DNA from: Comamonadaceae bacterium
GTDB taxonomy: Bacteria > Pseudomonadota > Gammaproteobacteria > Burkholderiales > Burkholderiaceae_C
DNA: 64,000 nucleotides
Direction of reading: 5' to 3'
NCBI GenBank assembly: GCA_027483665.1
Contig: JAIXUC010000005.1
Location: 1 to 64,000, forward strand
Shown here: piece by piece, positions 54,542 through 59,518 of the stretch
Layout of the letters: each line of letters starts with the position of its first letter
Position numbering within the stretch: the first letter of the stretch is position 1
Program-made: the position numbers and the translations under genes
The notes under the pieces: model-generated
What the model was told of the DNA's origin: nothing
Seen by the model: only the letters and a program-made list of their open reading frames with translations
Databases searched by the model: none

Positions 54542-55492
54542 TTGCCCGCAAACACCTCGCCCCTTGGCGCATTGCCAGCTCGATTTCGCCGTGAAAGAGT
54601 CCTCATCGTCGGATGCGGAGATGTTGGCCTGCGAGTGCTGCGTTTGCTGCCTCAGTCAGTTGGTCGCCTGGCATTGAGTTCCAGTCCTGCCCGGGGCCCT
54701 GAACTGCGCGCGCAGGGCGCTCGGGTGTTGTGGGGCAATCTGGATCAGGCGCAGACCCTCGGTCGTCTGAGCGGCGTGGCCACGCGGGTTTTGCACCTCG
54801 CGCCGCCGCCTATCGATGCCGCGGCCTCGCACGACAGCCGAAGCCGAGCCCTGGTGCGTGCGCTGGCCAAGCGCACTTCAGCACGATCTTGGGTGTATGG
54901 GTCAACTTCCGGTGTGTATGGCGACTGCGGCGGCGACTGGGTGAGCGAGACACGGCAAGTCCGCCCTGGTACAGCGCGCGCCAAGCGGCGGGTGGATGCA
55001 GAGCAGGTCATGCGCAAGAGCGGGCGGCGCGCCAGTGTGCGGGTGTCGGTTCTTCGCATTCCGGGAATCTACGCGCCTGACCGAGAAGGCGGAACCCCGC
55101 GCGAGCGCCTGATGCGCGGCTTGCCGGTTTTGCGCGAGGCTGATGATGTCTTCACCAATCACATTCACGCGGATGATCTGGCGCGGGCCTGTGTGCTGGC
55201 TCTTTGGCGCGGCTTGCCGCAAAGAGTGGTGAACGTGAGCGATGACACCCAACTGCGCATGGGCGAGTACATGCGCTTGGCTGCTCGTCTGTTCGCTTTG
55301 CCCGAGCCGCCGCAGGTCTCGTGGGCAGAGGCCTCAGTACGCCTGACGCCGATGGCTCTCAGCTTCATGAGCGAATCGCGTCGTTTGCTCAATCAGCGCA
55401 TGAAAGCGGAGCTGCGGCTGCGCTTGCGCCATCCGACGGTGGCGACTGGCTTGTTGTCTTCAGACCCAGTCGCAAGCGAGAGACAGCCTTAA
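54542..55492 (+). CDS. NAD-dependent epimerase/dehydratase family protein (YeeZ-like)
   Basis: A 316-residue Rossmann-fold protein of the extended-SDR type. The cofactor loop is VLIVGCGDVGLRVLR, close to the N-terminus. Further segments are YGSTSGVYGD, VLRIPGIYAPDR and NHIHADDLARACVLAL, matching YeeZ-type proteins of unknown substrate. The start is a TTG, either 54542 or 54572, since no ATG or GTG precedes the cofactor loop; neither has a strong ribosome site. It is divergent from the ferredoxin-reductase gene and overlaps the end of the convergent protease-like gene by four bases. Confidence 0.8.
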   Translation: MPANTSPLGALPARFRRERVLIVGCGDVGLRVLRLLPQSVGRLALSSSPARGPELRAQGARVLWGNLDQAQTLGRLSGVATRVLHLAPPPIDAAASHDSRSRALVRALAKRTSARSWVYGSTSGVYGDCGGDWVSETRQVRPGTARAKRRVDAEQVMRKSGRRASVRVSVLRIPGIYAPDREGGTPRERLMRGLPVLREADDVFTNHIHADDLARACVLALWRGLPQRVVNVSDDTQLRMGEYMRLAARLFALPEPPQVSWAEASVRLTPMALSFMSESRRLLNQRMKAELRLRLRHPTVATGLLSSDPVASERQP

Positions 55493-56592
55493 ATCGCGCC
55501 GGGTTGCCGCAGCGTGCCCATGCGATCAACCGGCTTGATGCGAAGGGTTTTGACGGCTGCGCCTTGCAAGACGGTCAACTCCAGCTCGGTTTCAGGGCTG
55601 GGCTTGGCCCAAATGGCTTTGTAGAACGACTCCAGTGAAGTCACCGCTTGTCCGTCCACGGCCAACACCAAGTCACCCGCAGCAACACCTGCCGTTTGCG
55701 CCGGACCCTTGGGCGAGGTTCTGTCGACATGGACACGGCCTTCTCGCTCAGATGAGTTGAGTCCCAGCCAGGGTCTGCGGCTGCGTTGGCTTCTTCCCTG
55801 GGCCTGCAACTCTGCGAACACGGGCTTGAGCAGATCAATGGCAACAAACATGTTTCCGGGCGCACGCTGGCCCCGACCACTCACGTCTGACATGAGCAAG
55901 CTGCCAATTCCGACCAGCTGCCCTTTGTCATCGAACACGCCAGCGCCACTGTGGTTCATGCCAGAGGCCAGCAAGGGCGGGCTGGTGAACAACGCAGTCT
56001 CGATGTGGTACTCCCAACTGCCAGAGAAAGAGCGCCTGTCGACCAGCTGGACCGTGGTGATATCGCCCGAAGGTCCGCCGCTGGCAGCCAACAGGGGTTG
56101 GCCTTCCCGCAAGTCGCGGGCCGACCCCAAAGGCACTGGTTGTAAGCCAGTGATCGGCACCAATGGTTTCACCAACCCAAAGCCGGTATCGATGTCATAA
56201 GCCACGATGCGAGCAGGAACGTTGCGCTTGCCGGGCAAGGTCAGCGTGACTGACTCGGCCTCCAGCAGCAAATAGCCAATGGTCAACACCAAACCATCTT
56301 CACCGATCAACACGCCAGAGCCCTCGCGTTGACGCCCGAGGCTGCTGGCTGACGCAGCACCTTCGGAGACGCGTGTTTGCAGCCCCACCACCGACGCGGC
56401 CGCCCGACTCAGTGCCTCGAGCAAATCTTTGGCAGCTACTGGCGATGGCGCGACAGGGGCACTCTCTGCTCGAGCCAATGTCCAGCCAGCCAGCAGAGTG
56501 AGCGTCATCAACGTGCACCAAGAGAGACGCCAAACCGTTCTCAGACGAACAGCAGTGGCGACCTTTCCACAGGCGATTGGGCTGGTTGCCAT
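55489..56592 (-). CDS. HtrA-like PDZ protein with a degenerate catalytic triad
   Basis: A 367-residue exported protein: signal peptide or anchor at about 20-42, trypsin-like domain (about 85-255) and a PDZ domain (about 275-355, GPAQTAGVAAGDLVLAVDG). In active HtrA proteases the triad is His in LTNxHVV, Asp in TDLALL and Ser in GNSGGP. Here the matching positions are Tyr107 (LTIGYLLLEA), Gly137 (DTGFGLVK) and Ser215 (NHSGAGV). With His and Asp missing it is unlikely to be a classical serine protease and may act as a chaperone or sensor. AGGAG precedes the ATG at 56592. It is divergent from the GGDEF gene. Confidence 0.85.
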   Translation of the reverse strand: MATSPIACGKVATAVRLRTVWRLSWCTLMTLTLLAGWTLARAESAPVAPSPVAAKDLLEALSRAAASVVGLQTRVSEGAASASSLGRQREGSGVLIGEDGLVLTIGYLLLEAESVTLTLPGKRNVPARIVAYDIDTGFGLVKPLVPITGLQPVPLGSARDLREGQPLLAASGGPSGDITTVQLVDRRSFSGSWEYHIETALFTSPPLLASGMNHSGAGVFDDKGQLVGIGSLLMSDVSGRGQRAPGNMFVAIDLLKPVFAELQAQGRSQRSRRPWLGLNSSEREGRVHVDRTSPKGPAQTAGVAAGDLVLAVDGQAVTSLESFYKAIWAKPSPETELELTVLQGAAVKTLRIKPVDRMGTLRQPGAI

Positions 56593-56736
56593 GACGACTC
56601 CTAGAAAGTTCAAGGATGGAGAATGCACCGATCACTAATTCCGATCAGTACGCCGGGGATTCCGCGCTGAAGCGACAGCACCTCGTTGGGCCTTCGGCCG
56701 AGTACCGGGTGCTAGACTAAATCTGCCCTCAAATTC

Positions 56737-57504
56737 ATGGTCGTGAACCTGCCTAACGCTCCAGACACGGTGCAGCTCAGCGAGCTGCAACTTGAACATG
56801 CACGCATGTTGCTGGAGCAAGCTGGCAGCAGTGTGGGCGATGACGCGCTGGATGCCACGCAAGTCGTGCAGAGAATCATCGATGGTCTGTGCGAGTTGTC
56901 GCTTCGAGATCCCCTCACCGGGCTTGCAAATCGCCGACAGTTCAACGCGGTCATCGAGCGGGAGATCGACCGGGTGGCCCGATCGGGTGAATCAGCACTT
57001 CTCATGCTGTTGGATCTTGACCATTTCAAGCAAGTCAACGACGTTTATGGTCACCCAGCCGGCGATCTGGTTTTGCAAACAGTGGCGCTGCGCCTCATGC
57101 AGGCGGTGCGACCGATGGACTCTGTGGCGCGCATTGGAGGTGAAGAGTTTGCAGTCATCTTGCCCAACTGCCAGGCCGCTTTTGGTCGTTTGGTAGCAGA
57201 GCGCATCCGTCGAACCGTGGAAGGCGACAGCATCACGGTGGCCCCGGGAGTTCAGGTGAAGGTGACAGTCAGTTTGGGCGGAGCCTTTGCTCCGCAATGG
57301 ATTCGCTCTACGGCAGCGCTCTGGGTCGAGCGCGCCGATCGGCAGCTTTACAAGGCCAAATTGGACGGGCGAAATCGAGTCAACATGGAAGAACTGCTTT
57401 TAAGTTCGGTGTCAGCTGAAGAAAAGGACTTGCTGTTTGGCGCACTCAGTGCCGAGCTTGCCGACGTCTTGCTGGGCTCGGATACAGACGGAGTTCGCCA
57501 ATGA
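56737..57504 (+). CDS. GGDEF-domain diguanylate cyclase
   Basis: A 255-residue soluble protein with a short helical N-terminal part (about 1-50) and a GGDEF domain. The active-site motif is GGEEF (134-138), and an RxxD inhibitory I-site (Arg125 to Asp128) is five residues upstream, so it should be an active, product-inhibited diguanylate cyclase. Substrate segments LRDPLTGLANRR and LDLDHFKQVND are intact. No sensor domain or membrane helix is visible. The stop overlaps the ATG of the MinD-like ATPase gene (ATGA), coupling their synthesis. A 40-residue helical tail follows the domain. Confidence 0.92.
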   Translation: MVVNLPNAPDTVQLSELQLEHARMLLEQAGSSVGDDALDATQVVQRIIDGLCELSLRDPLTGLANRRQFNAVIEREIDRVARSGESALLMLLDLDHFKQVNDVYGHPAGDLVLQTVALRLMQAVRPMDSVARIGGEEFAVILPNCQAAFGRLVAERIRRTVEGDSITVAPGVQVKVTVSLGGAFAPQWIRSTAALWVERADRQLYKAKLDGRNRVNMEELLLSSVSAEEKDLLFGALSAELADVLLGSDTDGVRQ

Positions 57505-58373
57505 GCACAGAAGCCAGCGCTGGCTCCAAGCCCTTGATTGCACCTGAAGCACTGGTTGCGGCAACAGCAGTGTCTGGCAGCGTGCCATCAGCGACCCAGC
57601 ACCGTGCAACGGTGATGGCCGTCACCAGTGGCAAAGGCGGGGTCGGCAAGACCTTCGTTTCTGCCAACGTCGCCGCTGCGCTTGCCAAGCGCGGGCTGCG
57701 CGTGTTGGTGCTCGACGCCGATTTGGGCCTGGCCAATTTGGACGTGGTGCTCAACCTTCACCCCAAGATCACGCTGCACGATGTCTTTACCGGCAAGGCC
57801 AAGCTGGAAGAAGCGGTGCTTCGGGCCCCTGGTGGTTTTCATGTGCTGTTGGCGGGGTCCGGTTTGGTGGAGTACTCCAGACTGACAACCGAAGTACGTG
57901 ACCAGTTTCAGCGTGTTATCCAGCAACTCATGCCAAGTTACGACATCGTGCTGCTCGATACAGGAGCAGGCATTTCCGATGTCGTTTTGTACGCCGTATC
58001 ACTGGCTGATGAAGTCTTGCTGGTGGTCACGCCAGAGCCGACCTCTCTGACAGACGCGTATGCCACCATCAAAGTGCTGGCCTCGCAGCAAAACCGTCAG
58101 CAGATTCGAATGATCATCAACCAGACCCTCAAAATGGGCGACGGGCGTCTCATCACCGCGCAGCTGCAGCGGGTCGTTGACCGGTTTGTGAGTGGACAGG
58201 CCGGTGCCCTGGTCAAGTTGGTTCATATGGGTGACATCCCATCCGACAACGCTGTGCGTGAGGCGCTACAGCGCCGCCAATTGCTGTTCACAACCCAACC
58301 TGGTTCTCCACCAGCTTTGGCTCTGGCGGCGCTCGCGGGACGCCTACAAGAAGTGGCTGCACGCTGGGCCTGA
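57501..58373 (+). CDS. MinD/FlhG-like P-loop ATPase
   Basis: A 290-residue deviant-Walker ATPase. Walker A is GKGGVGKT (44-51), followed by LDADLGLANLDVVL and LLDTGAGISDVVL. The C-terminal IPSDNAVREALQRRQLL and an amphipathic end resemble FlhG/FleN/YlxH, which count and place flagella. However, the 35-residue N-terminal extension is Ala/Ser-rich and lacks the DQAxxLR-type motif by which FlhG stimulates FlhF, and no flagellar gene is nearby. It is translationally coupled to a diguanylate cyclase gene. It may position another polar complex or link c-di-GMP to cell division. Confidence 0.86.
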   Translation: MSTEASAGSKPLIAPEALVAATAVSGSVPSATQHRATVMAVTSGKGGVGKTFVSANVAAALAKRGLRVLVLDADLGLANLDVVLNLHPKITLHDVFTGKAKLEEAVLRAPGGFHVLLAGSGLVEYSRLTTEVRDQFQRVIQQLMPSYDIVLLDTGAGISDVVLYAVSLADEVLLVVTPEPTSLTDAYATIKVLASQQNRQQIRMIINQTLKMGDGRLITAQLQRVVDRFVSGQAGALVKLVHMGDIPSDNAVREALQRRQLLFTTQPGSPPALALAALAGRLQEVAARWA

Positions 58374-58387
58374 GTGCCTGCGGCAAT

Positions 58388-59518
58388 CTAGCCTACGCGT
58401 ACGCGATTGCGGCCCAGTCTTTTGGCATCGTGCAAGGCCAAGTCAGCTGCCTTGTACAAGTTATCCAACCCCCCCGGCTGAGTGGCGGCAAGGCCAATGC
58501 TGACGGTGATGTTCAGGGGGCGTATGCCATCCATAACGGGGCTCAACGCTACCGCCTTTCTGATTTTTTCAGCCAAGGGCTCGGCAGCGGCCAAGGTGGT
58601 CTGCGGCAGGAGCACGATGAACTCTTCGCCCCCCAGCCGAGCGATCAGATCGGTCGATCGAAGGCTTCGCTGAAGCAAGGCTGCCATTTCCTTCAATACC
58701 AAGTCACCCGACTGCGTACCGAAGCGCTGGTTGACACGCCGGAAGTTGTCAATGTCTGCGATGAACACACAGGTCGGCAGGCTGTAGCGCTGCGCTCGAG
58801 CAAGTTCCATGTCGGCCAGTTGCGCAAAAGCGCGGCGGTTGTATAGCCCGGTCAGCGAGTCGTGGCGCGACAAGAATTCCACCTCATGTTGCTTGGCCGC
58901 CAAGGCCTCGCTCGTCACTTCAAGCTGCCTTTGGAGCAAAGCCGAAGTTTGAAAACGCCGCCACCCTACAAGGCACAGAAACGCTGCCAGCAGAGCCGGA
59001 GCCCAGGTCGGCTCAATTGCCACAGGGCTGACACCCCAAAGCAGCCAGATCGCCAACATCGGCACCGCTGTGTGAGGTGCAATCTTCAGGCTGGCTGCCG
59101 CGGCGCACACCAGCCACGGCACCCACTGCGCAAGCCAGCCAGAGGTTTGGGTCCATGTCGAAACCGACCCTAATGCGATGGCATAGGCGAGCAAGACGCC
59201 TAGCAACACGGGTCCAAGCCAACGCCAAGGCGGCACACCAGAACGGTAGAAGCTGCCCCTGAACCCCAGGCCGCCCAGTGCGGCAGCAACGCCAACATGC
59301 ATGCCAGCCCAGACAAGGCTGCCCGCGGTCATGGCTTGCCAGCCCATGTAGAGCGTGGGGGCGGCGGATGCAGCACAGAGCCATGTAACGCGCTGGGCAT
59401 TCACCGAGGCTGCCGCCGGAGTGACTTCGGGTGAAGCTGTGAAAAAAGCCATCGCCCTCATCGCAGCCGTCGGGCTCGGCATGTCCAACATGCTGGGCGG
59501 GCGAGGATCTGGGCTCAT
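58388..59518 (-). CDS. Membrane-bound GGDEF diguanylate cyclase
   Basis: A 376-residue protein. Five or six hydrophobic helices span about residues 45-185, then a coiled-coil-like linker (about 190-215) leads to a GGDEF domain. The active-site motif is GGEEF (296-300) with an RSTD I-site at 287-290, so catalysis and product inhibition are both expected. The membrane part has no recognised sensor name. The gene converges on the MinD-like ATPase gene with 14 bp between stops. Two further in-frame ATGs lie within the first 22 codons. Confidence 0.9.
   Translation of the reverse strand: MSPDPRPPSMLDMPSPTAAMRAMAFFTASPEVTPAAASVNAQRVTWLCAASAAPTLYMGWQAMTAGSLVWAGMHVGVAAALGGLGFRGSFYRSGVPPWRWLGPVLLGVLLAYAIALGSVSTWTQTSGWLAQWVPWLVCAAAASLKIAPHTAVPMLAIWLLWGVSPVAIEPTWAPALLAAFLCLVGWRRFQTSALLQRQLEVTSEALAAKQHEVEFLSRHDSLTGLYNRRAFAQLADMELARAQRYSLPTCVFIADIDNFRRVNQRFGTQSGDLVLKEMAALLQRSLRSTDLIARLGGEEFIVLLPQTTLAAAEPLAEKIRKAVALSPVMDGIRPLNITVSIGLAATQPGGLDNLYKAADLALHDAKRLGRNRVRVG

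Follow-up and report, generated by a model that had tools for sequence, protein, structure and literature searches.

The window that we have analysed is a stretch of 64,000 nucleotides from a Comamonadaceae bacterium. On its forward strand, a gene for a predicted diguanylate cyclase is followed by a gene for a P-loop ATPase, and the two show the following features:

56737-57504, forward strand: GGDEF open reading frame, predicted stand-alone diguanylate cyclase of 255 aa (Pfam PF00990)
57109-57120, forward strand: RPMD allosteric I-site (RxxD), residues 125-128; RPxD in 46/46 aligned orthologues
57136-57150, forward strand: GGEEF active site, residues 134-138; found in 46/46 orthologues
57409-57438, forward strand: motif VSAEEKDLLF of the C-terminal tail of the cyclase; such a tail in essentially all 46 orthologues
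57501-57504, forward strand: ATGA stop-start overlap, read from the sequence as translational coupling
57501-58373, forward strand: FlhG-clade P-loop ATPase of 290 aa, lacking both the DQAxxLR helix and a membrane-targeting tail at the C-terminus
57501-57605, forward strand: Ala/Ser-rich N-terminal extension of the ATPase; sequence and length vary among relatives
57627-57653, forward strand: deviant Walker A motif SGKGGVGKT of the ATPase, kept in aligned orthologues
57942-57974, forward strand: Walker B/switch region DIVLLDTGAGI of the ATPase; D148, L152 and D153-T-G-A-G-I158 invariant (alignment A1)

As the original prediction had described, the two frames overlap by ATGA, the GGEEF and RxxD sites are intact, and the first ~35 residues of the ATPase form an Ala/Ser-rich extension, which is modelled as disordered. 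In addition, GGAG stands a few bases 5' of the ATPase ATG. The upstream protein matches PF00990 with 155.9 bits and consists of a short N-terminal stretch, the GGDEF domain and a C-terminal tail of ~40 residues, with no sensor domain. The spacing of five residues between RPMD and GGEEF is correct for an I-site. Having both a GG(D/E)EF site and an RxxD I-site, the protein has the sequence expected of a diguanylate cyclase.

Several neighbours of the pair were also recorded. A second diguanylate cyclase, probably membrane-bound, is encoded convergently on the reverse strand (58388-59518), and one related locus (L035) has a GGDEF gene likewise. The host genome (G000) holds 21 GGDEF matches versus one PilZ match, which lies in a short open frame; that is, there are few classical c-di-GMP effectors for many cyclases. 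On the other side of the pair, an HtrA/DegS-like protein with a PDZ domain (55489-56628, reverse strand) has its catalytic His position apparently replaced (TIGYLLLEAE versus the TNNHVV type), and is possibly an inactive protease. No structured RNA was found at the pair, and the downstream tRNA-Leu is the sole RNA.

We have assigned the ATPase by tree, profile and structure, and all of them agree with the FlhG/FleN type originally proposed. The solved structure nearest to it is FleN of P. aeruginosa (180 bits), FleQ-FleN complexes also being among the closest, and its AlphaFold model (mean pLDDT 86.6) superposes on FleN with an rmsd of 1.4 Å and on FlhG with 2.1-2.4 Å. In profile comparison, the pair ATPases match FlhG with E=7e-60. 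In the tree, which comes from a quick search, the pair clade lies within the FlhG group and is separated from MinD with 100% support. The deviant Walker A, switch and Walker B motifs are all intact. Overall, the sequence and fold of the ATPase are nearest to FlhG/FleN rather than to MinD/ParA; the ParA and Mrp identities were rejected, their matches scoring under the model cut-offs or grouping in other clades. A wide search over ~85,000 species genomes returned the pair at 31 loci, and after these came 49 weaker matches, with 35-43% identity and from many phyla. Each of these 49 is adjoined by FlhF, FlhA and/or FliA, i.e., they are canonical FlhGs in flagellar operons.

On the other hand, the ATPase departs from FlhG in three defining features. 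A 2025 review describes flhG as consistently lying directly downstream of flhF, and the glutamine of the FlhG helix DQAxxLR as co-catalytic for the FlhF GTPase (PMC12826062). In the host genome, flhF is on another contig with a different protein in the slot next to it. The original prediction was thus right to place the ATPase gene away from the flagellar operon, and right about the missing DQAxxLR motif as well. This enhancer helix is absent from the window ATPase and from the aligned orthologues alike. By sequence, the C-terminal membrane-targeting sequence is absent as well: the ATPase ends after the last core helix, and the pair ATPases in general lack the FMQRLIQ-type tail seen in canonical FlhGs. 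Since helix, tail and place all fail, we name the protein an FlhG-clade ATPase, not FlhG proper, though by homology it would be expected to work like FlhG. Within the tree, the pair ATPases form one clade (70% support), and the canonical FlhGs of proteobacteria form another (99% support) that does not include it. This does not favour a recent splitting or copying of the local flhG, and the ATPase is probably a replacement or an old paralogue which did not come from a betaproteobacterial flhG, rather than one half of a literally split gene.

The pair is widely conserved, as a check among relatives suggested along with the original prediction has revealed. In a family sample of 151 genomes from 141 genera, ATPase orthologues (59-77% identity) occur in 92, with the cyclase upstream wherever the sequence reaches far enough, and they are found in further families of the order too; named carriers include Rhodoferax, Hylemonella, Xylophilus, Simplicispira, Macromonas, Aquabacterium and Rubrivivax. 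The cyclase gene immediately precedes the ATPase gene in 29/29 short loci, 20/20 longer loci (three genomes are common to these two sets), 4/4 wider-order loci and 30/31 named loci, where the sole exception is a sequence that starts 79 bases before the ATPase match. In all complete loci the upstream cyclases are orthologous, with 44-64% identity, and in nearly all relatives the two frames overlap by four bases or are separated by a gap of at most 13 bases. All loci examined that were long enough have kept the pairing, far more than chance would allow. Clustering of all open reading frames around the pair was noisy, and two consistent contexts emerged, neither of which is present in the window. 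One is a cheR-cheD-cheB cluster, confirmed by Pfam, which is the adjacent divergent neighbour in 22 loci of the Sphaerotilaceae type, one large lineage. The other is a SulP-type sulfate permease gene that immediately precedes the pair on the same strand, seen in many Comamonadaceae-type loci (L129, L133, L135, L191, L196, L198, L201, L203, L212 and others).

The pair had been described as being without flagellar genes, which is right for its neighbourhood and wrong for the genome. Contig C6 of the host genome carries a cluster of flhB-flhA-flhF-[flhG slot]-fliA, together with flhC and genes for the rod, the hook and the motor (apart from flhF, flhA and flhC, the names were read by eye from translations). 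Across the family, FlhF scores above the curated cut-off in 106/151 genomes, and the pair is present in 90/106 genomes with FlhF versus 2/45 without it (Fisher p=7e-22, a value which is too small, the genomes being related). As for the two genomes that break this pattern, G148 carries FlhA at the edge of a contig, and G040 is 74% complete. An intact P-loop FlhG occupies the slot in eight family genomes, and the pair is found in 0/8 of these versus 91/106 flagellated genomes; no sampled genome has the pair and an intact canonical FlhG together. In about 13 genomes that have FlhF, both the pair and an intact FlhG are missing (G022, G042, G044, G051, G052, G057, G071, G101, G104, G105, G114, G122, G140). 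Therefore, an FlhF flagellum does not strictly require the ATPase, which is dispensable in some lineages. At the corresponding loci (L136-L146, L150, L112), the flhG slot is empty in some.

The slot itself is filled in the host genome by a protein of 273 residues between flhF and fliA (G000:C6:35589-36407), which begins MLDGFFDQGASLRGLRQAG. It matches no Pfam family and lacks a Walker A motif, and it has kept the helix glutamine (DQGASLR). Likewise, none of the pair genomes examined has a P-loop in its slot protein. From 45 loci we have recovered 40 slot proteins, in which three intact FlhGs are included and a few genomes are counted twice, and xQ[AG]xxL is found in 40/40; in the other five loci, flhF runs straight into fliA (three) or the automatic picker missed the protein (two). 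By profile, the slot proteins match FlhG with E=5e-14. The slot protein model includes the N-terminal helix, and its best fold hits are FlhG structures 4rz3 and 4rz2 at a moderate TM of 0.5-0.6. The dN/dS values are 0.17-0.42 (six pairs), so the slot genes are not dead and have been kept under purifying selection. Other families of the order show intermediate P-loop decay, such as SGRxGVGKT (signature lysine lost) and SGKPxVGQT (P-loop lysine lost). In L163, L166 and L168-L182, which belong to these families and have no pair, the canonical FlhG next to flhF has a decaying P-loop and a changed DADLGLAN motif; read from the sequences, these loci form a graded series toward ATPase loss.

A second flhF-flhG locus with a P-loop FlhG is not there: flhF is present and its slot protein lacks the P-loop. 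As the other relatives that targeted searches of the host genome gave for the window ATPase are weak (ParA and Mrp/ApbC are among them), the window ATPase is the sole P-loop FlhG of this genome, which the original prediction had named as one part of what would count against it.

The module resembles several known systems in part. With FlhG/FleN/YlxH, the MinD-like ATPases of flagellar placement and number, the pair ATPase shares the sequence clade, the fold, the deviant Walker A, the switch motifs and the co-occurrence with FlhF, but unlike them it is encoded away from flhF, lacks the DQAxxLR helix and the membrane-targeting sequence, has a short insert near residues 230-236 and is translationally coupled to a diguanylate cyclase. 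The FleQ-FleN system of Pseudomonas likewise brings an FlhG-type ATPase together with c-di-GMP in flagellar control, although its link is a c-di-GMP-binding activator, while the link of the pair is a c-di-GMP-making enzyme in an organism with FlhC. BcsQ, in the BcsE-BcsR-BcsQ system, is also a MinD-family ATPase tied to c-di-GMP signalling, but the pair ATPase reaches only 77 of 158 bits, far below the curated cut-off, and its distribution follows flagella. MinD shares the fold and the P-loop, and here the ATPase differs by score (129 of 213 bits, below the curated cut-off) and by its separate clade. We have found no description of the pair or of a decayed FlhG in these bacteria in the open-access literature.

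Based on the above analyses, we somewhat favour the explanation that the pair serves as a module for flagellar regulation, with the ATPase part of FlhG encoded at a distance from the flhF operon and linked to a diguanylate cyclase. The original prediction had pictured a c-di-GMP module for a polar complex other than, or in addition to, flagella; the conserved c-di-GMP/ATPase module stands, while "other than flagella" is not supported, the pair following FlhF and not type IV pili. It is still conceivable, at a low probability, that the ATPase acts like ParC/PpfA and positions or counts some other structure at the pole, such as type IV pili or chemoreceptor arrays, which the cyclase would feed. 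ParA/MinD-type ATPases have many cargos, cheR-cheD-cheB adjoins the pair in one lineage, and type IV pili are near-universal across the family. However, the ATPase falls in the FlhG clade, and only 2/36 genomes with PilM but no FlhF have the pair, yet it is present in 2/3 FlhF genomes without PilM; this distribution does not fit a type IV pilus module.

Transcriptional control in the manner of FleQ-FleN, where the ATPase would restrain a flagellar activator and the cyclase would set the c-di-GMP sensed by it, appears equally improbable to us. FleN and the FleQ-FleN complexes are indeed the closest structures, but FlhC adjoins the flagellar genes, and FlhDC is therefore likely the master regulator. 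We give the same low probability to an operon that simply expresses two flagellar-programme proteins together, without mutual action. An interaction between cyclase and ATPase is a prediction from their genes, and the genome holds about 20 further GGDEF matches; against this, the pairing holds strictly over many genera, with frames that overlap or almost touch, and the conserved tail of the cyclase is not seen in the other cyclases scanned. The consensus of this tail, C-terminal of the GGDEF domain, is V[ST]AEEKxxLF, and no tail of this type was found in eight other GGDEF loci of the own genome that were scanned. From its conservation, it is a possible docking site for the ATPase.

For the favoured flagellar module, we infer that the two activities of FlhG have been divided between the slot protein and the detached ATPase, where the distribution, the homology and the motif loss are observed. 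The slot protein would stimulate the FlhF GTPase through its retained glutamine helix, and the detached ATPase would do the switching between ATP and ADP states. FlhG as a MinD-like ATPase cycles between a monomer and a membrane-bound dimer (PMC12826062). Since the membrane tail is missing, the detached ATPase may be unable to undergo this cycle on the membrane. It would recruit or switch the cyclase via the conserved tail, and local c-di-GMP output would follow, and presumably be controlled by, the ATPase state. This output would in turn adjust flagellar number, assembly or the motile-sessile switch. With less confidence, we suggest as a tentative idea that a large part of the Burkholderiales has rebuilt the FlhF-FlhG switch as separate parts, i.e., a P-loop-less FlhG that would only stimulate FlhF, an FlhG-clade ATPase, and a cyclase that would bind this ATPase and convert its ATP state to local c-di-GMP.

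FlhF-FlhG has been treated as a conserved two-gene switch, and here, in many genera, one protein has the ATPase and another has the FlhF-stimulating helix. For annotation, this is a warning that the flhF-adjacent gene in these bacteria has no P-loop and is unlikely to encode an ATPase. Being on separate proteins, the two functions of FlhG would allow separate testing, and the strict pairing with a cyclase would directly connect the control of flagellar number and c-di-GMP.
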